Notes under the pieces: generated by a model
Databases searched by the model: none
Seen by the model: the letters and a program-made list of their open reading frames with translations, nothing else
What the model was told of the DNA's origin: nothing
Position numbers and translations under genes: made by a program
Part shown: piece by piece, positions 2,899 to 27,293 of the stretch
Position numbering within the stretch: position 1 is the first letter of the stretch
Layout of the letters: each line of letters starts with the position of its first letter
IMG/VR virus record: IMGVR_UViG_3300025652_000421
Location: 1 to 27,293 of that record
Direction: 5' to 3' (one strand)
DNA: 27,293 nucleotides
Source: a virus

Positions 2899-3932
2899 TT
2901 TCTTCCTTTGATATGTGTACCGCTTTCTGAAATTCCAGAATTTGTCTGACGAATAAATTTCGCCGTGGCGGCCAATTCGCTTATCGTTCGTGCCCCACTG
3001 TAGGAGAGACCTGAGCGGATACCTCGTTCTAAATCTGCCAGGATATCCCCTACAGAACCTCGGTATGGCACGTTGGCGGACACCCCCTCATGCGATGAGT
3101 AGCGGCCGCGCCAGTTGACTTGTGCTTCCTTGGAGGCCATGCCGCGGTAGGTCTTCCATCTTGTTCCGTCTGGCTTCTCAAAAACCTTGCCTGGCGTCTC
3201 GTCGGTGCCGGAAAATAAAGACCCACACATAACTGCGTCGGCGCCGGCTGCAAGGGCCTTGACAATATCTCCGGAGTTTCTGATTCCCCCGTCTGCTATA
3301 ATAGCGACGTCGCGGTCTGTCTTTGCGCACTCAAAGATCGTATGCAATCCTGGTACGCCATGGCCAGTCTGTATACGGGTAGAGCAGATAGAGCCGCCGC
3401 CGATGTTACAGCGTACAGAATCAGCGCCCCAGTCAGCAAGATCGTTGACCCCTTGCAAAGTGGCTACATTGCCGGCCATCAGATGGATATCCGAGCCGAA
3501 TTCTGCCCTCAGGTTTTGAAGGGCCTCCTTCATCATTATGTGATGGCCGTGAGCGACATCTAAACACAAGAACGATGCTTGCGCGCTGACCAAAGACATG
3601 GCGCGGGCCATATAATCATCGGTAATCCCAATCGCGGCGCCGACAAGGCCGGCCGAGCCCTTAAGCTCAGTCGTCATATCTTGCGCCATGGACACAAATC
3701 TAGATTGCATTTCAATCGAGTTGTAGCGATGAATCACGGAGGTGCCGCCGCTAATACCAATGGCGATCGCCATGGCAGCCTCGGTGATGGTGTCCATCGG
3801 AGAGGCGATTACTGGCAGCTTGAGTGTGACGTTGTTTCCCAGGTCAGTCGAAATAGACACTTCGGAGCGGCTCTTAATGTCAGAATACTGGGGCGCTAGC
3901 AACACATCGTCGTAGGAAAAAGTTTCTTGCAT
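2892..3932 (-). CDS. GMP reductase-like enzyme (IMPDH/GMPR family)
   Basis: This 346-residue protein is a single TIM barrel of the IMP dehydrogenase/GMP reductase family without CBS domains. The N-terminal FSYDDVLLAP, the Asp-containing strand near D125, the catalytic loop GGGSICSTR with C183, and IIADGGIRNSGDI are typical. The flap from GMAS to HEGV is short: 12 residues between GM and Tyr, against 15 in E. coli GuaC as I recall it and a far longer flap in IMPDH. I therefore favour GMP reductase (GMP + NADPH to IMP + NH3). It would recycle guanine nucleotides from degraded host nucleic acid. A CBS-less IMP dehydrogenase remains possible because an Arg-Tyr pair occurs at 277-278. It shares one base (TAATG) with the preceding gene. 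Confidence 0.85.
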   Translation of the reverse strand: MQETFSYDDVLLAPQYSDIKSRSEVSISTDLGNNVTLKLPVIASPMDTITEAAMAIAIGISGGTSVIHRYNSIEMQSRFVSMAQDMTTELKGSAGLVGAAIGITDDYMARAMSLVSAQASFLCLDVAHGHHIMMKEALQNLRAEFGSDIHLMAGNVATLQGVNDLADWGADSVRCNIGGGSICSTRIQTGHGVPGLHTIFECAKTDRDVAIIADGGIRNSGDIVKALAAGADAVMCGSLFSGTDETPGKVFEKPDGTRWKTYRGMASKEAQVNWRGRYSSHEGVSANVPYRGSVGDILADLERGIRSGLSYSGARTISELAATAKFIRQTNSGISESGTHIKGRKW

Positions 3933-4652: not shown

Positions 4653-4887
4653 TTTCTAATACTCCTTTTGCTTTCTCAATACAATGCGGACAGAATAATC
4701 TGACCACCTCTTGCTTCACAACAACGCTCCACGAGTTGACCATCTCTCTGTCCTGTTTATCAAATGGTTCTGCGCATGCGTCACATTTCTGTGGCAACTT
4801 ACCAAAGTGGGAAATTTTTTCGGCGAGGTTTTCGCTGGCATCCTTCCCCATCTGTTTTGCTAAGGCTCGGCGCTGCTGACGGCTCAT
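4639..4887 (-). CDS. Small zinc-ribbon protein
   Basis: This 82-residue protein has a basic helical N-terminus (MSRQQRRALAKQ) followed by two CxxC knuckles, KCDAC near residue 35 and FCPHC near residue 66, separated by about 30 residues with predicted strands. This is a typical zinc-ribbon layout. It overlaps the upstream methyltransferase gene by 4 bases (ATGA) and the downstream thioredoxin gene by 14. Binding to nucleic acid or to a protein partner is possible; the sequence does not decide. Confidence 0.65.
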   Translation of the reverse strand: MSRQQRRALAKQMGKDASENLAEKISHFGKLPQKCDACAEPFDKQDREMVNSWSVVVKQEVVRLFCPHCIEKAKGVLENERV

Positions 4888-5357
4888 CGGTTAATCCCCT
4901 CGACGCGCCAAAGTTCATCGCCGCCGTCGAACACAACCACTGCTGATGGGAACGGTGCCGAGTTCTTGGAGTCACCGAACTTTAGGCGCCCCTTCACAAA
5001 ATGAATCTCCGAGGCCTTCATAACATAGTTATGCCAATACTTTGTATCGGTTCTTGCTGGGATGAGCATCACGACTTTAGTTCCTGTGTTCATTGCTTCA
5101 TTATAACCCTTTGCAATCCACTTGTCAATACCTCTTCCGTATGGTGGGTTCACAAAGGACGTGAAGCCCTCCCAACTCTTACCCAGGCCGTCTTCAGCTT
5201 CGGTAAAAAAGTTAGCACACTTTGTATTATGGGTGCTCGCGCAAGGGTCCAAGTCAAAGGGTCCGAAGCGCCAGTTTAACTTATCAAAAAAGTCTTGTGG
5301 GGTTGCCCAGTTGCCAGTGGCAGAGCTAAACATTGTTTTTTGTGTATCTTTATTCAT
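4884..5357 (-). CDS. Phage DNA N6-adenine methyltransferase
   Basis: At 157 residues this matches the compact phage N6-adenine methyltransferases (Dam-like, Pfam DNA_N_6A family). Visible features are WATPQDFFDKLN near the start, FDLDPCAS near residue 35 as part of the AdoMet/catalytic region, and the motif IV NPPYGRG at about 69-75, which holds the catalytic NPPY. It would methylate adenine in a short DNA site. The preceding gene, overlapping by 8 bases, is a PD-(D/E)XK nuclease candidate, so this enzyme may protect phage DNA from it. The start ATG at 5357 has AAAGGAAA upstream. The target site cannot be read from sequence. Confidence 0.85.
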   Translation of the reverse strand: MNKDTQKTMFSSATGNWATPQDFFDKLNWRFGPFDLDPCASTHNTKCANFFTEAEDGLGKSWEGFTSFVNPPYGRGIDKWIAKGYNEAMNTGTKVVMLIPARTDTKYWHNYVMKASEIHFVKGRLKFGDSKNSAPFPSAVVVFDGGDELWRVEGINR

Positions 5358-5919
5358 TGTTTTCCTTTAAAAGTTGTTTAAGATGTTCTTCGGGGTTTTT
5401 GTTGTTTAGTTTGATTCCCCATTCTTTCACGTCAGAGACACTGATGCCGGGATCGTTTATGCGGGAGCCAAACAGGTTCTGCTTAGTGAGCCTCTCAAGC
5501 TCCTCTTCGTCCCAGCCCTGGTCTAACAGATGTTGCCTGGCTCGATTCCAAGAGTTCATGCCGGCGCGGCCAGCGTGCCCTTCGTTTTGTTTGGTGATGA
5601 CTTTATCATAGAACGGCTCCAAGTCTTTCTGGAAGCACACATAGTGCTCCACGAACTCGCCATCCTCGGTAACCGTACTGAACAATGAAAAGTCAAAACC
5701 CTTTTTCCAAGCCTGTACCTTCATGGTTCCCATCCTGCTAGAGGTAGAGAAGTGGCCGCGCGACACACTAGTGCTCTTCAGTTCACACCTGAACTCCTTG
5801 CCCTCAACAATGAGGGAGCCATCAGGTACATACTTGTTTGAACGACCAGGACCCGGCGTCATACCGAAACGTTGAAGTTGCTTGTTTTCGATCTTGTCGT
5901 CTTGGCGAGTCCTATTCAC
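5350..5919 (-). CDS. Putative PD-(D/E)XK endonuclease
   Basis: This 189-residue protein starts with GTG at 5919, overlapping the dUTPase stop by 8 bases, with GGGAG upstream. Residues 32-48 contain PDG, a 12-residue strand-turn-strand, then ELK, so D33, E46 and K48 fit the metal-binding PD-x(n)-(D/E)xK signature. A Ser-rich stretch near 55-65 and a Trp/Lys helix follow, and the C-terminal half is helical. It lies directly before an adenine methyltransferase, which suggests a restriction-modification pair or a host-DNA-degrading nuclease with self-protection. The motif is short and the family is very diverse, so this remains a candidate. Confidence 0.5.
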   Translation of the reverse strand: MNRTRQDDKIENKQLQRFGMTPGPGRSNKYVPDGSLIVEGKEFRCELKSTSVSRGHFSTSSRMGTMKVQAWKKGFDFSLFSTVTEDGEFVEHYVCFQKDLEPFYDKVITKQNEGHAGRAGMNSWNRARQHLLDQGWDEEELERLTKQNLFGSRINDPGISVSDVKEWGIKLNNKNPEEHLKQLLKENNE

Positions 5920-7428: not shown

Positions 7429-8034
7429 TTACTTGAAATCAAATTCAACTTTTGTTTTAATTTTCATCTCTGGGACGTGAAGATGGTTAGCCAGATTATG
7501 TTTAAGGCACTCGTCTGCCTCTAAGAACCAATCAGAATGGCCCTTGTCGTGAACGATATCAAGAAAGTAATCTTTATGCTTGCCGCAGTTCTCTGCCATC
7601 ATGCTATAAATCTTCTGATTTAGGCGGTCGGTCTCTTCAGCAGATGCCTTAATCTCTTCAACTTTTCCCCAACCCATCGAACTTACGTCGTGGATCATAA
7701 GAGTGGCATCGGGGTCCATATACCGGTAGCCCTCGGCGCCGAAGCTAAACAAGATGGCGCCGCAGGACATCGCCTTACCCTGAACAATGGTCGCTACTGG
7801 AATGCGACTATGCTTAATATCTGATATCATAGACATCAGGCTGTAAACTTGGCCGCCATAACTATCGATAATGATTGGTACAAGAGGCTGCCCTGTGTTC
7901 TGCGCCTTCATCATTGCGCCGGAAAATGCTTTGGCATTTGATTCATCGAATTTCGACAGCCGGATGACAACAGGCAGGTCATCGATGAGGCTTGGCTCTT
8001 TCAGCAGGGGACTAAAGTACTTTATGATATTCAC
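7429..8034 (-). CDS. clpP: ClpP-like serine protease with intact triad
   Basis: I start at GTG 8034 because AAGGAG lies 8 bases upstream; GTG 8070 (overlapping the DnaE stop) and TTG 8094 would extend the protein by 12 or 20 residues without a good site. The result is 201 residues. The nucleophile is S90 in GKAMSCG, the histidine H115 in LMIHD, and the triad Asp D168 in SDWFLEADE, all in register with E. coli ClpP. DSYGGQV carries the oxyanion Gly pair. This protein, unlike the homologue near base 1000, should be catalytically competent. It follows DnaE and precedes the J-domain protein. Possible roles are processing of virion proteins or mixed assemblies with the second ClpP-like protein. 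Confidence 0.85.
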   Translation of the reverse strand: MNIIKYFSPLLKEPSLIDDLPVVIRLSKFDESNAKAFSGAMMKAQNTGQPLVPIIIDSYGGQVYSLMSMISDIKHSRIPVATIVQGKAMSCGAILFSFGAEGYRYMDPDATLMIHDVSSMGWGKVEEIKASAEETDRLNQKIYSMMAENCGKHKDYFLDIVHDKGHSDWFLEADECLKHNLANHLHVPEMKIKTKVEFDFK

Positions 8035-8066
8035 GGGGGAAACTCCTTGTATAAAGTATGTAGTGG

Positions 8067-11000
8067 TCACCCCAACAAGCGGAATGTTTTCCAAAGAGCA
8101 TAAGTTGAAAATCCCCAGTTCTCATTGTAGTCTAGCTTTGCCATATATGGGCGATTTAACTGAATACGATCCTTGTGTGGTTTGACTCCCCAGCATCGGA
8201 TTCTAGTAACTTCGTTATTAGAATCAATGACTTCCACAATCCAATAAAGTTTACCGTTCTTTGTTTTCCGCTCTGTTACCTTTCTGGGGATGAACCAGCA
8301 AACTTCAAGCTCTGGATCAAACTCCGAGATAGGTGGAATAAACTTTTCTTGTAGTTTCTGGATCGTTTCCAGGCTGATGACCAGATTGATTGGGAACACT
8401 CCCGTCAGATCTGTCTTAAACTGAATGATTTCTTCTTCGGAGAAGTCGCCCTCCGGTCGATAGAGTTCAACGTTTTCTGCAAACTTCTTCAGGTTCTTAG
8501 GTCGCTCTACAACGCAGGCAGACCAAAAGTGCTTGCGGCCAGAGAATCTGTCATCGACAATAAGATCTAAGGCGCCACCTCTACACAGAGCATCGAGAGC
8601 CTTCTTATTTAGCTTGCTGTATGACACCCCCTCCCGAAACAAAAGGTCTTCTGCATTCAAGAATGGCCTGTGGTCGAGCACTTGCTCGATGGCTGTTGCG
8701 CCTAGACCCTTAATAGATGTGAGCGGCTGGATAAGAGTCTTACCGTCGTCACTAATTTCCCAAACCTTACCAGACTTATTTATATCAAGTGGTGCAATAT
8801 CAAAGCCGTACTGCTTTGCAATGTTGATCGCCTTCTCTTTGCGTGTCTCGGGCTCTTTGTCCAGAAATGCAGCCATCCACTCAGCCGGATAATAATTCCA
8901 CAGCCATGCACACTGGAAAGAAATAATACTATACGATACCGCATGCGACTTGTTGAAACCGTAGCCGGAGAAAAACTCAAACTTATCCCAAAGTGACTGG
9001 GCCTCATCACGGCCGATCTTATTCTTAACACAGCCGGAAATAAACTTAGCGTGCAGCTTTTCTTTAACAGAACCCTTGCCAGTTCCCTTCTTGGTGAGCA
9101 CCTTACGAAGCATGTTGCCCTCATCAAGAGTCAGGCCACCCAGTTTATGAGCCAGGAGAGCAATCTGCTCTTGGAAGATAAGGAAACCAAATGTCTCCTG
9201 TGTAATGTCGTGAGCATCATCATTTAAATATTTGATGTGATGCGGGCTCTCCTTGGCGTCGACGTACTCATCATGCACGCCAGCGGACAAAGGGCCCGGG
9301 CGATAGATAGATGTGATAGCCGATACATCGATGATGTTGCGTGGCTTTGCTCGCACACAGAACTGCTGGGCACCTTGCTCTGTAAACTGGAAGACCCCAG
9401 CCCATCGGCCAGTGTGAAAAACATTTTCATATACTTCTTGATCATCCAGATCGATCACTTCAGGGTGCAAGTTCTTCTCATAGTACTCACGCACTTGCGC
9501 GAATGTTGGACTCTCAACACCGTGATGGCGCTGGAGAATGTGCTCGATGCAACCCTCCATCATCTTGAGAGTGGACAAGCCGAGCAGGTCGAACTTAATG
9601 AATCCCATCGGCTCAAGGTGACGGACGTTCTGACCTTCTGACCATGGGGCCTGCCGTACGCCTCCAGAGTTAATTAGGGGCATGTTCTTATCAAGGTTTT
9701 CAGCAATCACAACTCCGCCGGCATGGCGAGAGCATGAGCGAACTTGACCAACAAGACCCTCAACGTGCGTCTTGACGGCAGGATGAGCAGCAAGATATTT
9801 CTGCAGCGATGGGGAAAACTCGATGACCTCCTCCCAAGTCGGGACGTACACGCCGGCTTTAATGCCATGCTTTTGCTTGGCTGGTGTAGTGGCTTCACGC
9901 ATCATGATTGATGTAACCGTATTGACTTCAGTAAAAGGAATGTTATAAAGCTTGGAAATGTCCTTGATCAAAGACTTCAACTGTAGCGTGTTCCAGTTAG
10001 AGATCGGCGCGACACAGTCTGTTCCCCACATCTCGACGAGCTTTTCTTTCAGCGCCATGCTGTCAGATACATCATAGTCAATATCCGGATAGTCCTTTGC
10101 ATCGGAGCGTAGGAATCGTGAGAACAGTAGGCCATGCTTGATCGGGTCTACCTGTGTAATGTTCAGGGCGTATGCAACCAACGATCCAGCAGCAGAGCCG
10201 CGGCCCGGGCCTGGGAGCATCATGTCGACTGCCACATCGACAATAGACTTCATTGTTAGGAAGTACTTAGAGAAGCCTCGATCATCAATAACATTGAGTT
10301 CATGTTTAAGGCGATTGGTGTATTCCTTGTTGGTATGCAGATTCTTTTCCTTAAGACCCTCTAGAGCAAAGTTTACTAGTGCTTGTGTGGCAGTAAAGCC
10401 GGCAGGCACAACGAACTCTGGTAGCCTAACGGTGTTGTCAGGGAGAAACTTCTCAATACGATCAAACGCAATCCTGTGGCTCTCTTCAATGCTCTCAAGA
10501 ACAAGGTCATCATCATACTCAAAGCCTTGTTCCTTGGAGTATTGTTTGTAACTCTCCCACATCTGGTCGCCGTTCTTTGGATACAACTCGTAACCAATCT
10601 CTTCGACACCCTCTGGCAGTTGGGACTCATCCTCAGCCCATGATGGAGTGCCTTTCCCAAGCCAGCCAAGACGCTTATAAAGTTCACGGTCCTTCCAAGC
10701 TTCAGGGTCTGGATAGTGACTGTCAGCGGTGGTAAGCAAAGAGACACCAAACTCTTTGGCAACCTGAATAACGTATTGATTCAGTTCATGTTGTTCTTTA
10801 ATGTTGTTCCATTGGATCTCAGCATACCAGCGATCTCCAAAGATATCTACCATCTGTCGTGTAGACTCTCTCATGGCCTCTAGGACGGCTTCTTCACCTT
10901 CCTCCCGGTATTCCCAGTAGTTACCAGCGTAAACGCCGCCTAGGCATGCTGACGAGGCAATGATACCCTCATTGTACTTCTTCAAGAGAGCGTAGTCAAT

Positions 11001-11501
11001 ACGCGGGTAGCGATAGAAGTTTTCTGGCTGGTAGGACTCAGAGACAAGCTTGAACAAATTGTTAAGCCCTGTCTGGTTTTGTACTAGCAAAACTAAGTGC
11101 CTACGTCGCTTGAGGATGCCCTGAGTCTTCTTGCTATCGCCTTCGTCTTCTACGGTGGCGCCGGACTGGGCGTCCTTCTTAATTGCGCGTGCTCTCTTCT
11201 TATCTTCCATCGCCTGGTTATAAGCGTCGTGCCATTCTGCAATCGACGGGGTGAAATATGCTTCGCAACCAAAGATGGGCTTAAACTCTTTACCCTCTTC
11301 TTGCATTTTCTTTGCATGCAGAACTTGACCTGCAAGACCGTTCATGTTGCCGTGGTCTGTGAGAGCCAGGGCGTCGGCGCCATTACTATAAGCGAAATCC
11401 ATGTGCGCGCTTGGATACCCGATGGCATCAAAAATAGAACCTGCAACGCTGTGCGCATGCAGTCCTACAAATTTAATCTTCGATTGTGTTCTCTGTGTCA
11501 T
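8067..11501 (-). CDS. dnaE: DNA polymerase III alpha subunit (family C, DnaE type)
   Basis: A 1144-residue replicative polymerase. The N-terminal PHP domain (1 to about 265) keeps metal-ligand residues: HAH at 15-17, TDH at 48-50, GCE at 78-80 and ADSH at 259-262, so it may have proofreading activity, unlike the degenerate E. coli domain. The palm holds GPGRGSAAGS (431-440) and the catalytic pair in PDIDYD (D473, D475), with the third Asp in IKFDLLGLSTL. A helix-hairpin-helix (IKGLGATAIEQ) and an OB-fold region near the C-terminus follow. ATG 11501 has GGGAGGG upstream and overlaps the previous gene by 29 bases. No clamp loader, clamp or epsilon subunit is in this window. A family A polymerase is also present, which is noteworthy. 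Confidence 0.95.
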   Translation of the reverse strand: MTQRTQSKIKFVGLHAHSVAGSIFDAIGYPSAHMDFAYSNGADALALTDHGNMNGLAGQVLHAKKMQEEGKEFKPIFGCEAYFTPSIAEWHDAYNQAMEDKKRARAIKKDAQSGATVEDEGDSKKTQGILKRRRHLVLLVQNQTGLNNLFKLVSESYQPENFYRYPRIDYALLKKYNEGIIASSACLGGVYAGNYWEYREEGEEAVLEAMRESTRQMVDIFGDRWYAEIQWNNIKEQHELNQYVIQVAKEFGVSLLTTADSHYPDPEAWKDRELYKRLGWLGKGTPSWAEDESQLPEGVEEIGYELYPKNGDQMWESYKQYSKEQGFEYDDDLVLESIEESHRIAFDRIEKFLPDNTVRLPEFVVPAGFTATQALVNFALEGLKEKNLHTNKEYTNRLKHELNVIDDRGFSKYFLTMKSIVDVAVDMMLPGPGRGSAAGSLVAYALNITQVDPIKHGLLFSRFLRSDAKDYPDIDYDVSDSMALKEKLVEMWGTDCVAPISNWNTLQLKSLIKDISKLYNIPFTEVNTVTSIMMREATTPAKQKHGIKAGVYVPTWEEVIEFSPSLQKYLAAHPAVKTHVEGLVGQVRSCSRHAGGVVIAENLDKNMPLINSGGVRQAPWSEGQNVRHLEPMGFIKFDLLGLSTLKMMEGCIEHILQRHHGVESPTFAQVREYYEKNLHPEVIDLDDQEVYENVFHTGRWAGVFQFTEQGAQQFCVRAKPRNIIDVSAITSIYRPGPLSAGVHDEYVDAKESPHHIKYLNDDAHDITQETFGFLIFQEQIALLAHKLGGLTLDEGNMLRKVLTKKGTGKGSVKEKLHAKFISGCVKNKIGRDEAQSLWDKFEFFSGYGFNKSHAVSYSIISFQCAWLWNYYPAEWMAAFLDKEPETRKEKAINIAKQYGFDIAPLDINKSGKVWEISDDGKTLIQPLTSIKGLGATAIEQVLDHRPFLNAEDLLFREGVSYSKLNKKALDALCRGGALDLIVDDRFSGRKHFWSACVVERPKNLKKFAENVELYRPEGDFSEEEIIQFKTDLTGVFPINLVISLETIQKLQEKFIPPISEFDPELEVCWFIPRKVTERKTKNGKLYWIVEVIDSNNEVTRIRCWGVKPHKDRIQLNRPYMAKLDYNENWGFSTYALWKTFRLLG

Positions 11502-22175: not shown

Positions 22176-22207
22176 GCGGCAGACTTTGCACCGGTCTGCC
22201 ATCGGCT
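22176..22207 (-). terminator. Intergenic hairpin, copy 1 of a three-member family
   Basis: Arms GGCAGAC (22178-22184) and GTCTGCC (22194-22200) form a 7-bp stem, followed on the minus strand by GCC and TTTATTT. It lies between the ParB-like and RecA genes. Of 32 positions, 29 equal copy 2 near 24600. A weak terminator or RNA-processing element fits. Confidence 0.65.
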
Positions 22208-22212
22208 TTGAT

Positions 22213-23148
22213 TCACCCTTCGATGATATCATTAATCCTTGCCAAAGGCAAGCTTTTATTTTTACTTGCTCGGGAAGCATTGGGTGAGTTGACCTTTCGG
22301 AAATCGTTAATGATTCCTCGGGCGACACATGCTGCAGCCTTATTCACAACGGACCCGCCGGCAGCCTTGTAATCTGTGGCCACAACACGCTGTTCATACA
22401 ACGCTTGGCGAGTGGTGAACCACTGCTCAAAGTCGGAGTTAATCTTGGACCGACTACTGCTTAAAGCAGGGTAAAGTTTAAAAAGGACTGCCAAACCTTC
22501 TAGAAGTTCAACTTTTACCTCTTCGGCTTTTGGCCACGTTGCCTTGACTAGACTAGCTGCCAACTTGGTGCTTTGGCTACCCTGCTTAAGGGCGCGCCGA
22601 AATCCACCAATTTTTACGCGCGGGCTGTGGGTTTTTTTGCCGGGAACAAGCCCCACAATACCCCCCGTGTCTGATGAGCCGTGTACACACAAGCCGCACC
22701 TAATAAGCTCTTGACTTATGGCAAGAGCATCTTTTCGGAAGCTCTTCACATCGTGAACATAGACCTCTTCTGGGGAGGCATTCTTACGATGGTAGAGATT
22801 TATGTCCGTGAAAAGCTCATGGTACTCCTCCATATCTTTTACTTGATAAATCATCGCGGGGATTTCCTCTGCGTCGGGAAATGTCAATATAAACATATGA
22901 CGGCGATGGTCCCCATCAAGTAGTTTAGGCTCGATTCCAGAATCAATTGGAAACATCGCGACTGCGATTGGTCCGAACAGATTCCAGTTCCACCCATTTT
23001 TGAGATATTTGGAAATCAGCTTTCCGTTAGTATCTCGATTTACATGACCGTGAATATCCACGGACACTAAGCCATACGTAGGCTGGACGTTGAGGACCTT
23101 AATTTGTCCTGCTTTTAGGGAATGCTTTCCCTGTACTTTGATTGACAT
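22213..23148 (-). CDS. ParB/Srx-fold nuclease-like DNA-binding protein
   Basis: A 311-residue protein with a ParB-N-like domain near residues 10-125: a strand-rich start, then LLDGDHRRHMFIL (77-89), matching the ParB-type G-(D/N)-H-R box, then IPAMIYQVKDMEEYHELFTDIN. The rest is helical and basic. The domain occurs in ParB partition proteins, in phage ParB-like nucleases and in nucleotide-binding relatives. No ParA partner is present here, so partition is unlikely. Its place directly after a restriction-modification-like pair and before RecA suggests DNA metabolism. The ATG at 23148 has GGAG upstream. Confidence 0.65.
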   Translation of the reverse strand: MSIKVQGKHSLKAGQIKVLNVQPTYGLVSVDIHGHVNRDTNGKLISKYLKNGWNWNLFGPIAVAMFPIDSGIEPKLLDGDHRRHMFILTFPDAEEIPAMIYQVKDMEEYHELFTDINLYHRKNASPEEVYVHDVKSFRKDALAISQELIRCGLCVHGSSDTGGIVGLVPGKKTHSPRVKIGGFRRALKQGSQSTKLAASLVKATWPKAEEVKVELLEGLAVLFKLYPALSSSRSKINSDFEQWFTTRQALYEQRVVATDYKAAGGSVVNKAAACVARGIINDFRKVNSPNASRASKNKSLPLARINDIIEG

Positions 23149-23225: not shown

Positions 23226-24092
23226 TTACTTTTTGCCTATCATCAATATTTCTCTCGCCTTCTTGGCACTATGTGTGCCGTCTTCGTTCTTTTTTCTTCT
23301 TCCTGCCGTATATGTGACATCGAAATATGTGATGTCATTTCTGCCTTGGCGCGCCTCAAAAAAGCCGTCACCAATGTCTCTATTAGACATCATAACGTAT
23401 GCACCCTTGACTGTCAAGTCATTTAGGAACTTAATTACTGACTCCTGTAAATCATCATCAAAATCAACACCATACTGTGTGAACGATCCTCGATATGGAG
23501 GATCCAGAAACACATATGAGTTAGGTGTGGCGGCGCTTAAGGTCTCGCGAAAATCTCCAGTCATGAGGGTGCAGCGCTGAAGGGCCTTCTTCCACTCTAA
23601 AACATTGTCTTTATCGTATACCTTGTCTTTCTGATTTAGCAGACCAGACGGCGTGCCAAAGCGACCGTCAGTGTTTTTGTTAATCTGCCAGATTCCATTA
23701 AACCCTGTCTTCATGAGAAAATATAGGGTGGCAGCTTCTTCGGTCCTTGACCACTTTTTATAATCAAATGCATGCTCGCGTCTTAAGTCGTAGTAAAAGA
23801 CCTTGCGTGCTTCTTTGTCCAAAGGCAAGTACTGTGTTGAGAGATCATCCATCCGTGTCATGAAAGCGCTGCAGTCATCTTTAACGGCAGCATAAATAGC
23901 CATGATAGATTCATTGGAATCGTTCAAAACAAACGTGGCGCTGGGGTTTTGAGCATAGGCCCATATAAACATTGCGCCGGCCCCCAAGAATGGCTCCATG
24001 TAATGATCGAATGAACCTGGGAGGACCTCTTTTTCTTTATACTTTTTCAGAAGGCGAGTCTTTCCTCCAGCCCACATAAATAACGGCTTCAT
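23226..24092 (-). CDS. D12-class DNA N6-adenine methyltransferase
   Basis: A 288-residue Dam/D12-class enzyme. FMWAGGK (5-11) is the AdoMet-binding motif X, EPFLGAGAMF (33-42) is motif I, and the catalytic motif IV is DPPY at 197-200. The helical target-recognition region lies between 75 and 180. It transfers methyl from AdoMet to adenine N6 in a short site. It overlaps the EcoRI/MunI-like endonuclease gene by 4 bases (ATGA), with the nuclease first, so the two are coupled and most simply form a restriction-modification unit. T4 Dam belongs to the same class, so an orphan function is possible too. Confidence 0.9.
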   Translation of the reverse strand: MKPLFMWAGGKTRLLKKYKEKEVLPGSFDHYMEPFLGAGAMFIWAYAQNPSATFVLNDSNESIMAIYAAVKDDCSAFMTRMDDLSTQYLPLDKEARKVFYYDLRREHAFDYKKWSRTEEAATLYFLMKTGFNGIWQINKNTDGRFGTPSGLLNQKDKVYDKDNVLEWKKALQRCTLMTGDFRETLSAATPNSYVFLDPPYRGSFTQYGVDFDDDLQESVIKFLNDLTVKGAYVMMSNRDIGDGFFEARQGRNDITYFDVTYTAGRRKKNEDGTHSAKKAREILMIGKK

Positions 24093-24571
24093 ACAATCTC
24101 CATAATTTGTTTAGCGACGGCTCCAATATTACGGAAGCCGGGATCCATTATAGCATGGTTTTCTCCTTCAAGCAACAAGGAAAGTTCATCTTTGTATTTT
24201 TGACCTTGAAAGGTTTTTCCCGAAAAGACCATAAAGAAAGGCTCTTCCACGGTATTGTACTTCTCACGGACTGCCCGCTTCAACGCAGGGGAAAGAAACT
24301 TATAAGCGCGTTCGTGCGCATTGCCCCCGTTATTACCTGTCTTTTTTTCCACATACAGGCGCCCCTCTGTGAGGGTGTTGATAATAAGCGTATCAAGTAC
24401 GATGCCGCGGCCTTCACTGTATACTTGCAGCTTGGGCGGCTTGTGAATAACCGTATAATACGATGGCAATGCAGTCGCGATTAGGGTTGCAAAGTCTTCT
24501 TCCCCCGCATCTCCTACGATGCGTGCCCCCATTTGCCAATTGTCTCTTTGTGATAGCGCTGTCGCACCCAT
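24089..24571 (-). CDS. EcoRI/MunI-like type II restriction endonuclease
   Basis: A 160-residue, compact nuclease. D60, E75 and K77 fit the PD-(D/E)xK site, with the D-to-E spacing of 15 and E-x-K as I recall for MunI (D83, E98, K100). Just downstream, GNAHER (83-88) matches the EcoRI GNAIER recognition segment, where Glu and Arg contact the AATT-centred site. EcoRI cuts GAATTC and MunI CAATTG. It is shorter than both, and the C-terminus may be reduced. The overlapping methyltransferase gene supports a restriction-modification role. It might degrade host DNA during infection, as chloroviruses do. The fold and motif are well supported; the exact site is not known. Confidence 0.7.
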   Translation of the reverse strand: MGATALSQRDNWQMGARIVGDAGEEDFATLIATALPSYYTVIHKPPKLQVYSEGRGIVLDTLIINTLTEGRLYVEKKTGNNGGNAHERAYKFLSPALKRAVREKYNTVEEPFFMVFSGKTFQGQKYKDELSLLLEGENHAIMDPGFRNIGAVAKQIMEIV

Positions 24572-24591: not shown

Positions 24592-24623
24592 GCGGCAGAC
24601 TTTTAACCGGTCTGCCAGCGGCT
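24592..24623 (-). terminator. Intergenic hairpin, copy 2 of a three-member family
   Basis: Arms GGCAGAC (24594-24600) and GTCTGCC (24610-24616) form the stem, with GC pairs extending it past a bulged A; the minus strand then reads GCTATTTTAA. It separates the Thr-rich membrane gene from the restriction endonuclease gene and is 29/32 identical to copy 1. Confidence 0.68.
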
Positions 24624-24630
24624 GTTTTTA

Positions 24631-24909
24631 CTACTCTGTTGTAGTTGTGGTGGTGTCAGTTGTTCCACCATCAGTGGTAGTTTCGGTGGTTGTTCCACCA
24701 TCCGTACCAGTTGTTGTGCCACTCGTTGTGGCAGAGACTTCTACAGTCTCACTAGCGGTTGTTTCAGTTGTTTCAGTGTTGGTGTTTGTCGACACCGCTC
24801 CCGGATCAACCGAACATGTCCCGTATGCTGTTGCGACCAGAAGGACGCCTCCGGCCACACTTACTTGGACCTTCCATTTGGCCCATAGGGACTTTAGTGA
24901 TTCTAACAT
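24631..24909 (-). CDS. Thr-rich single-pass membrane mini-protein
   Basis: This 92-residue protein has a short amphipathic N-terminus (MLESLKSLWAKWKVQ), a hydrophobic segment at 15-31 (VQVSVAGGVLLVATAYG) ending at a Cys, and then about 55 residues of Thr, Ser, Glu and Gly with repeats such as TTTETTTDGGTT. The tail would lie outside the inner membrane. The lipobox is poor (YGTC), so a lipoprotein is doubtful. Composition resembles a mucin-like stalk. It stands alone between two related hairpins. AAGGAG precedes the ATG. Function unknown; an envelope or superinfection-exclusion role is a guess. Confidence 0.6.
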   Translation of the reverse strand: MLESLKSLWAKWKVQVSVAGGVLLVATAYGTCSVDPGAVSTNTNTETTETTASETVEVSATTSGTTTGTDGGTTTETTTDGGTTDTTTTTTE

Positions 24910-25840: not shown

Positions 25841-26681
25841 GAGTTTTTTGTTGTTGTATTGCGTTAGTGTGGGCAACGCAGAACCCAAAATCTGGTAAAT
25901 TTGTTTCGTAAATCGCGTAAGAAATTTTACGATAGGCATTCCTGGGTTTTGTTTTTAGGATGTCTACCAAACGCTTATGCAACCCTGTCTCACTCTCCAA
26001 CCGCTTTTCGTTTATACACATATAATAACATAATTCGCGCTCGGTGTCAAGGTCAAATAGCCACTTTTCTTCAAGTCTTTTCATGTCCAAAAGGGACACT
26101 GCTCTTATCTTGTTGATATTGCTTGGCTTTGACACATTTCCAATGTGCGGCTCGGTATGTGCAAAATAATTTAAGTAATGCACACAAGAATAGACGGTCT
26201 CATTAAGAATGCTGTAGTACTCTTTTAGATTGATCTCGCTGTGGACTCTCTCAATATTCTCGTTGGAAAAAATAGTTAGGTTTTTAAAAAGGCCTGATCG
26301 TGCATATTCCTGTAGCACTCCGAAAGTCGTGTTCTCCACTAATCTTGGTACGCCTGTGAGCAGTTCGATATCCGGCTTGATATAGAAAACATCCAGTTGT
26401 TTCTCTCTGATCTGCTCTAATACCCCAAGTGTATAAATTGAACTCAGTGAGGAGCCCACTACAAAAACCTGCACGTGGTCTTTTAGATTCTTTAAAAACT
26501 TTTTAACTCGGGGGGCGTTCTTTTCGTACTCTTCAGGGGTATCGTACGTATTTAACTTAAACTGCGTCTTTGAGTTCTTCTCGACCTTGCTGTTCATGGT
26601 ATATACCTCGTATTGCGGCAGATCTGCAAACTTACTTGCGATTGCAGACGCAGCATTGCCAATTCCGATCACAGAAATCAT
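25818..26681 (-). CDS. Tubulin/FtsZ-like protein (divergent), unknown function
   Basis: This 287-residue protein begins with MISVIGIGNAASAIASKF, a strand and glycine loop like the first nucleotide-binding loop of FtsZ/tubulin. VFVVGSSLSSIYT (72-84) sits where FtsZ has its GGGTGTG T4 loop, followed by a helix, the strand LDVFYIKPDIE, the segment TFGVLQEYARSG, FSNENIE at the place of the FtsZ NDR region, and a long helix YYSILNETVYSCVHYLNYF like H7. The T4 loop is degenerate, so GTP binding may be altered. It overlaps the polymerase A gene by 4 bases. Phage tubulins centre or move DNA in some large phages, but the role here is open. A simple Rossmann-fold protein is the alternative. Confidence 0.5.
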   Translation of the reverse strand: MISVIGIGNAASAIASKFADLPQYEVYTMNSKVEKNSKTQFKLNTYDTPEEYEKNAPRVKKFLKNLKDHVQVFVVGSSLSSIYTLGVLEQIREKQLDVFYIKPDIELLTGVPRLVENTTFGVLQEYARSGLFKNLTIFSNENIERVHSEINLKEYYSILNETVYSCVHYLNYFAHTEPHIGNVSKPSNINKIRAVSLLDMKRLEEKWLFDLDTERELCYYMCINEKRLESETGLHKRLVDILKTKPRNAYRKISYAIYETNLPDFGFCVAHTNAIQQQKTLDKFDQE

Positions 26682-27293
26682 AGGTTTAGGTCTCCCAAAT
26701 CAAAATAGTTTTGGCCGGCCTTAAGATTGACCATGAATGAGTCCAATTTGTTATTTGAAAAGACTTCTTTAATTGCCGGCAAAAGAGGGCGGTCCTCATT
26801 AGCCAAGTCAATTACCAGTTCATCATGTACAATATGTGAAATGTGACTTTTCGTGTTTTCTAGCATTTTGTTGATCTCAATTGCCCGGTCGATAACCAGA
26901 TCCGAAGTTGTGCTTTGGATAAGGTAATTGAATGCCTTTCTTTGTTCCACTTTAATGCGCCTTCCGAAGATGGTCTTAATATAGCCATCTTTGTAATGTT
27001 TGTCAAGAATCAAATTGCGATTATATAGATCGCTTTCAATAATCGTAGAATCAGGATTGTACAACCACCCGAAAAACAAAGTCTTTGCTTCTTCGCGCGT
27101 AGGATTGCGTATGTCATTTGATTTGTTAAACACGTTTTCAATGTTCCATTGGTGAATGTCTTCCTGCGGTTGCGGTTCGCCGAGAAGAGACAGCACCGTC
27201 CTTACCTCCGCTCCGTTATAGTCCAATGAAATAAACCAATCGTTTTTAGGCTTTACAACCTTTCTAAAATCCTTTTTCATCGTTAAGACGGGG
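26678..27293 (-). CDS. polA: DNA polymerase I (family A), C-terminal part, cut by window edge
   Basis: The frame is open to the right edge; the first four codons before the ATG at 27280 have no stop, so the start lies outside. About 204 residues of the palm/fingers are visible. Motif A is DYNGAEVR (D20 and E25 counted from that Met), motif B is REEAKTLFFGWLY with R62, K66, F70 and Y74, and motif C is HDE in HIVHDELV. These match the catalytic residues of E. coli Pol I (D705, E710, R754, K758, F762, Y766, D882). Phe at the 762 position is a type seen in many virulent phages. It would be the main phage replicase unless DnaE takes that role. The preceding exonuclease domain cannot be judged. Confidence 0.9.
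   Translation of the reverse strand, partial: PVLTMKKDFRKVVKPKNDWFISLDYNGAEVRTVLSLLGEPQPQEDIHQWNIENVFNKSNDIRNPTREEAKTLFFGWLYNPDSTIIESDLYNRNLILDKHYKDGYIKTIFGRRIKVEQRKAFNYLIQSTTSDLVIDRAIEINKMLENTKSHISHIVHDELVIDLANEDRPLLPAIKEVFSNNKLDSFMVNLKAGQNYFDLGDLNL

Follow-up and report, generated by a model that had tools for sequence, protein, structure and literature searches.

The window, by which we mean the whole 27,293-base stretch analyzed here, is the record of an uncultured virus, and we refer to its carrier as a marine phage. Its main genes lie on the minus strand and encode RecA-like, DnaB-like, and DnaE-like proteins, a ribonucleotide reductase, and a dUTPase-like protein, names that were mostly assigned by eye from the translations. 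Two further genes encode a MunI-type nuclease of 160 amino acids and a D12-class adenine methyltransferase of 288 amino acids (Table 1). A first-pass annotation, made from the sequence alone, had described a nuclease reading frame overlapping an adenine methyltransferase gene. Both frames are indeed present, and the nuclease stop and the methyltransferase start share four nucleotides (ATGA, 24089-24092). The nuclease frame is preceded by a ribosome-binding site, GAGGAGG, that we judged to be good. The two adjacent genes have the arrangement of a Type II restriction-modification pair.

Table 1 Features of the nuclease and methyltransferase locus, and of a third nuclease type at related loci. 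Positions refer to the window unless a related locus (L number) is named.
Feature	Position	Strand	Basis
Second stem-loop copy preceding the recA-like gene, second cassette border	22178-22200	(-)	L055 and L057 homology resumes at the recA start
DGQHR/ParB-like gene inside the variable cassette, optional neighbor	22213-23148	(-)	TIGR03187, E 2e-5
D12-class (Dam family) N6-adenine methyltransferase gene, 288 aa	23226-24092	(-)	PF02086, TIGR00571, DpnM match
Methyltransferase Q136 codon, aligned with E. coli Dam R124	23685-23687	(-)	Q in 88/88 phage enzymes
Methyltransferase M6 codon, aligned with E. coli Dam K9	24075-24077	(-)	M in 69/88, I in 19/88 phage enzymes
MunI-type restriction endonuclease gene, 160 aa	24089-24571	(-)	Profile, predicted fold, PF11407, dN/dS
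Recognition segment G83-N-A-H-E-R88 (MunI 116-121; EcoRI G140-NAIE-R145)	24308-24325	(-)	Invariant in alignment A1; aligned
Codons of catalytic E75-K76-K77 (MunI E98-x-K100)	24341-24349	(-)	E75 and K77 invariant in A1; aligned to MunI
Codon of catalytic D60 (MunI position 83)	24392-24394	(-)	Invariant in A1; aligned to 1d02 and the near-MunI reading frame
Stem-loop GGCAGACCGGTTAAAAGTCTGCC preceding the nuclease, probable cassette border	24594-24616	(-)	L055 homology breaks inside; L057 homology breaks just after
Third nuclease type, ADGG..IF...ENK.Q...NA(C/V)ER, before the same methyltransferase	L061:2498-3001, L125:2492-3004, L120:27-404		

The window nuclease is a compact protein that belongs to the MunI branch of the EcoRI/MunI fold. 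A PDB search with the single sequence returned MunI as the best match (E 1.8e-4), and a profile of 20 homologs matched MunI (1d02) at E 7e-9, followed only by repeat lectins without a qualifying stretch. Against the RestrictionMunI family (PF11407), the window protein scored 18.1 bits, below the cut-off of 25; all 20 family members matched (best E 7.3e-8), and one relative (L091) passed the cut-off with 30.9 bits. The AlphaFold (AF2) model, with a pLDDT of 86, was aligned by VIA-align to chain A of 1d02 with a Z of 13.4 (rmsd 2.3 Å, 136 residues, 24% identity), the next entry reaching 10.6, and Foldseek also placed MunI first (E 1e-7). The predicted structure therefore superposes on MunI, and the EcoRI/MunI fold on which the first-pass annotation depended survived the comparison. 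EcoRI itself was not matched by sequence and was absent among the structure matches listed for the model. Searches of PHROGs and NCBIfam with the window nuclease gave no match, and the only MunI-type sequence that tblastn retrieved from INPHARED was a near-MunI fragment on MT836404. No nuclease relative was found in GTDB genomes with GGNAH-type patterns, a search that reaches only proteins sharing those stretches.

Thirty-three full-length relatives were recovered from IMG/VR, and the alignment A1 retains 20 non-identical rows, including 19 relatives with 51-80% identity to the window nuclease. Forty positions are invariant, among them D60, E75, K77, and G82-R88 (GGNAHER). The catalytic residues and the GNAHER segment read by eye in the first pass are therefore not only present but constant across 20 sequences, and the arrangement D60-x14-E75-x-K77, that of a PD-(D/E)xK nuclease, has the same aspartate-to-glutamate spacing as MunI (83-x14-98). 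The residue before D60 is leucine in the window nuclease, compared with proline in MunI and in the relatives L065 and L091. Position 83 of MunI is alanine in the 1d02 chain, which we take to be the crystallized D83A mutant. The near-MunI reading frame on MT836404 carries SPDF at this place, so aspartate is the natural residue at position 83. This frame (L143; MT836404.1, near 10189-10611) comes from a faecal scaffold labeled ‘bacteriophage’, which is unverified and could be bacterial DNA.

The phage protein shares with MunI the fold, the D-x14-E-x-K arrangement, GNAHER, and an N-terminal MG..LS.R.NWQ motif, but it differs in being phage-encoded, in being paired with a D12 methyltransferase, and in its length (160 amino acids versus 202). 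It lacks about nine residues between the catalytic lysine and GNAHER, among them R115, which stands just before GNAHER in MunI and presumably takes part in reading the outer bases. Because R115 is missing, the outer bases must be read differently than in MunI. With EcoRI (PF02963, PDB 1eri/1qc9), the window nuclease has the GNAxER segment in common, although it belongs on the MunI side. Between the window and L002 nuclease genes, we counted 49.5 synonymous and 6.5 non-synonymous changes, a dN/dS of 0.026, with other informative pairs reaching up to 0.18; the nuclease gene is thus under purifying selection.

The methyltransferase was assigned to the D12 class (Dam family), with 110 bits against a cut-off of 22 for PF02086 (E 2.1e-31), 166 bits against a cut-off of 114.85 for TIGR00571 (E 1.3e-48), and a match to DpnM (2dpm) at E 4.7e-21. 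Similar to the GATC-specific enzymes E. coli Dam and DpnM, it is a D12-family protein with the catalytic DPPY, present in 88/88 phage methyltransferases, and with the target-recognition loop FNG...P. E. coli Dam uses K9 to read the G in base pair 1 of its GATC site and touches base pair 4 through R124 (PMC10073500), and a K9A mutant was reported to methylate sequences other than GATC (PMC6567924). The lysine and arginine are kept in EcoDam, DpnM, P7 Dam, and S-WAM2. In contrast, none of the 88 phage enzymes has this pair of guanine readers: K9 is replaced by methionine or isoleucine and R124 by glutamine. A further difference from E. coli Dam and DpnM is GTPSG in place of NVPFG. The lack of guanine readers at both outer pairs, with a glutamine facing pair 4, fits A-A*-T-T as the methylated sequence, although the step from these replacements to AATT is one that we infer. 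Here, nature may have carried out an experiment on the change of a methyltransferase target from GATC to AATT. S-WAM2, whose methyltransferase keeps both residues and which served as a control for a GATC pair, has no recognizable nuclease upstream.

In all 32 loci with readable sequence, some of them on near-duplicate contigs, the methyltransferase gene lies immediately downstream of the MunI-type gene, either abutting it or overlapping it by 4 nt. Profile, fold, and operon evidence thus all support the initial proposal of a phage-encoded EcoRI/MunI-like endonuclease with a D12 methyltransferase partner. Relatives of the window methyltransferase were also used as bait. The 87 loci obtained, which include near-duplicate contigs and a few loci fetched with an EcoRI-type query, carry upstream of the methyltransferase a MunI-type nuclease (27), an EcoRI-type nuclease (21, five of them with one gene between), or a third, NAxER-type nuclease (3). 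At the remaining 36 of the 87, no nuclease was recognized, so a methyltransferase on its own must also bring some benefit or at any rate do no harm.

The EcoRI-type family (A3, the S-RIM2 type) has the motif PDGG...FExK...GNAIER and matches EcoRI both in sequence and in predicted fold. Its profile retrieved EcoRI entries from the PDB with E values between 1.6e-6 and 1.1e-5 and, apart from these, one designed protein (E 0.024), and VIA-align of the A3 model gave Z values of 14.8-15.3 for five EcoRI entries, the next entry reaching 9.1. Foldseek alone did not rank EcoRI significantly for this model. The profile-profile comparison of the MunI-type and EcoRI-type phage families was weak (probability 20%, E 0.0011), with ExK...GNAxER aligned exactly, and hhalign links the third, NAxER type to the EcoRI-type family (probability 95%, E 2.7e-8). 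Other uncharacterized genes directly upstream of the same methyltransferase (L062:2262-2999, L050:1840-2892, and L118:2134-3000) include some nuclease-like stretches by eye; Pfam gave no match for the L062 gene and none above the cut-off for that of L118. At L080:558-1364, and also at L094, L095, and L097, a second D12 methyltransferase gene lies directly upstream in place of a nuclease.

On the methyltransferase tree, at least six changes between nuclease classes are required. The clearest case of nuclease exchange between near-identical phages is L077 and L068, which are 98.2% identical over 2,447 bases upstream and 98.6% identical over the methyltransferase. These segments differ in the nuclease gene only. 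The first encodes an EcoRI-type nuclease (L077:2483-3001) and the second a MunI-type nuclease with GGNATEER (L068:2438-3004), and the two nuclease genes have no DNA similarity. Loss can also be followed. L057 matches the window at 98.6% identity until just before the start of the nuclease, which it lacks. L055 has flanks 98% identical to those of the window, with the block between about 22151 and 24607 replaced. In L050 and L051, only the last nuclease codons are left before a methyltransferase 96.5% identical to that of the window. These phages provide a natural experiment in which a nuclease is exchanged without killing its carrier.

Copies of a stem-loop, GGCAGACCGGTNNAAAGTCTGCC, lie at or near the cassette borders, before the nuclease and before recA, and may serve the exchange by recombination. 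These repeated intergenic stem-loops have the form GGCAGAC...GTCTGCC, and a variant stands before the gene starting at 24909. We weighed the DGQHR/ParB-like gene of the variable cassette as a possible third component but discarded it, as it is absent from most related loci. Genes of this kind were nevertheless seen beside or inside the cassette at L113-L115 and L120-L124 and between the nuclease and the methyltransferase in several cyanophage-like loci; their presence is not constant.

EcoRI recognizes GAATTC and MunI recognizes CAATTG, and the first-pass annotation named these two hexamers as candidate sites. Of these, only the AATT core is favored by our data. The GNAxER segment, through which EcoRI and MunI both read AATT, is kept in both the MunI-type and the EcoRI-type phage partners, and as one methyltransferase would protect against both nuclease types, its target is most simply AATT. 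The choice of a hexamer goes beyond the evidence, given that R115 is missing and that a single methyltransferase serves both types. The same annotation had listed CAATTG and GAATTC positions that proved right to within 1-2 bases: CAATTG occurs in the window at 1646, 2460, 24537, and five more places, and GAATTC at 3498 and 7093. It had also taken the unpurged sites as a sign of self-methylation. AATT is indeed not purged (114 observed versus 127.6 expected), but as most palindromic tetramers in the window are near expectation, we judged the site counts uninformative. By its presumed 4-bp target, the phage pair can be likened to MluCI (AATT), a likeness in the site; EcoRI, MunI, and MluCI have been grouped as a possible mosaic family (PMC4081073). 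It is improbable that the genes form a true pair directed at a site without an AATT center. The shortened region before GNAHER and the missing arginine indicate that the window nuclease does not read DNA exactly as MunI does. However, the EcoRI residues of the GNAxER segment (N141, A142, and R145) contact the inner A:T pairs (PMC4081073), the segment is common to both partner types, and the methyltransferase has lost the guanine readers of GATC.

We put at roughly three in four the probability that the two genes constitute a complete Type II restriction-modification cassette, carried by the phage and centered on AATT, whose shield stays the same and allows the nuclease to be swapped. In such a cassette, the two proteins would be made together from one operon, nuclease first. 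A nuclease dimer would cut a site with an AATT center, and the methyltransferase would mark the second A of AATT, shielding phage genomes as they are copied in the infected cell. Virion DNA would then reach the next host already methylated, and unmethylated DNA, whether host chromosome, plasmids, or rival phages, would be cut. The nuclease-first order would endanger a bacterium acquiring the pair and would suit a phage with incoming DNA methylated in the previous host. Because the shield would cover AATT itself, an EcoRI-type nuclease could replace a MunI-type one without self-harm. The more specific proposal strikes us as evenly balanced: that a Dam-type methyltransferase was retargeted from GATC to AATT through the loss of two guanine readers and became the constant shield for MunI-type, EcoRI-type, and NAxER-type nucleases exchanged among near-identical phages. 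If it is true, one antidote opens the way to a changing set of restriction enzymes aimed at the DNA of hosts or rivals.

What the cassette would be used for can be approached by analogy with the chloroviruses. Their endonucleases, the best-studied parallel, are packaged, and they are believed to break down host DNA within minutes (PMC7019647); CviAI (GATC) and CviAII (CATG) are likewise virus-encoded nucleases with a short site and an adjacent adenine methyltransferase gene (PMC7019647, PMC7248222). However, the chloroviruses infect algae, and their nucleases belong to other families. By this parallel, which the first-pass annotation also drew and which is plausible, the phage nuclease might break the host chromosome early, stopping host expression and feeding phage replication, a reading to which we give slightly less than an even chance. 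The pair lies among replication genes, with the ribonucleotide reductase and dUTPase-like genes in the same record, and the operon order would suit an enzyme made when the incoming DNA is already methylated. That near-identical phages have often lost the nuclease shows, on the other hand, that it is dispensable. As far as can be judged from genome comparison, this frequent exchange and loss argue for a function in conflict over a fixed function in takeover.

A somewhat less probable but still credible use is competition between phages, in which unmodified superinfecting DNA would be destroyed and nuclease exchange would reflect conflict among co-infecting phages. Both the presence and the type of the nuclease differ between near-identical phages (L057, L055, and L077/L068), as might be expected of a conflict weapon. 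However, a shared AATT methyltransferase would leave related phages mutually immune, and the chlorovirus endonucleases, when tested, were not responsible for exclusion (PMC7019647). We consider it unlikely that the cassette is instead a selfish, addictive element that spreads by cutting the DNA of unmethylated sister phages and is kept since loss of the methyltransferase would be lethal. Its borders at repeated stem-loops and its clean replacement between conserved flanks would suit such an element, as would L050 and L057, where the nuclease is lost and the methyltransferase kept; yet the pair remains in place at related loci, and solo methyltransferases are common and persistent, so addiction is not needed to keep them. 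Least probable of all is an anti-restriction or regulatory methyltransferase beside a nuclease-like gene that is catalytically dead or acts differently (for example, as a nickase or a recombination nuclease): the many solo methyltransferases count for it, as orphan methyltransferases are frequent in phages, but none of the catalytic or recognition residues varies, dN/dS is low, and the replacements come from AATT-reading EcoRI-type families.

Restriction enzymes are usually viewed as bacterial weapons against phages. Here, tailed phages, including cultured S-RIM2 cyanophages, appear to carry complete EcoRI/MunI-type pairs, which, if active, would give phages in the ocean a means of breaking down host genomes or of fighting one another. 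The EcoRI-type gene is found in 64 Synechococcus phage S-RIM2/S-BM1 records and in S-CREM2. In S-RIM2, it lies directly before a methyltransferase of the same family as that of the window, is annotated as ‘hypothetical protein’ (L045:1968-2504; KX349240.1 39811-40347), and overlaps a gene annotated as ‘DNA adenine methylase’. In S-CREM2, the GenBank note reads ‘restriction endonuclease EcoRI’, the nuclease is not discussed in the S-CREM2 paper, and the methyltransferase nearby differs in belonging to another D12 subgroup that keeps K9. We found no paper describing such a phage pair in the open literature, a weak negative with subscription journals outside the search. An isolated phage with a culturable host makes the question testable at once.

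Several other features of the window deserve mention. A possible second pair consists of a 189-codon reading frame (5350-5919, minus strand) with a PD-x12-ELK motif, invariant in five aligned sequences, whose end overlaps a Dam-type methyltransferase gene of the PF05869 family (4884-5357, minus strand). Among the related loci L036-L041, the two genes remain neighbors in L037-L039 and L041, and about 200 nt separate them in L040; a solved structural relative of the 189-residue protein was sought and none was found. Two ClpP-like protease genes, recognized by eye from their translations, are present on the minus strand at 507-1202 and 7429-8094. Finally, the same record holds both a full DnaE-like polymerase gene (8067-11501, minus strand) and a short family-A polymerase fragment (26678-27280, minus strand; 200 amino acids, PF00476 E 7e-18), and the latter may be part of a split polymerase.
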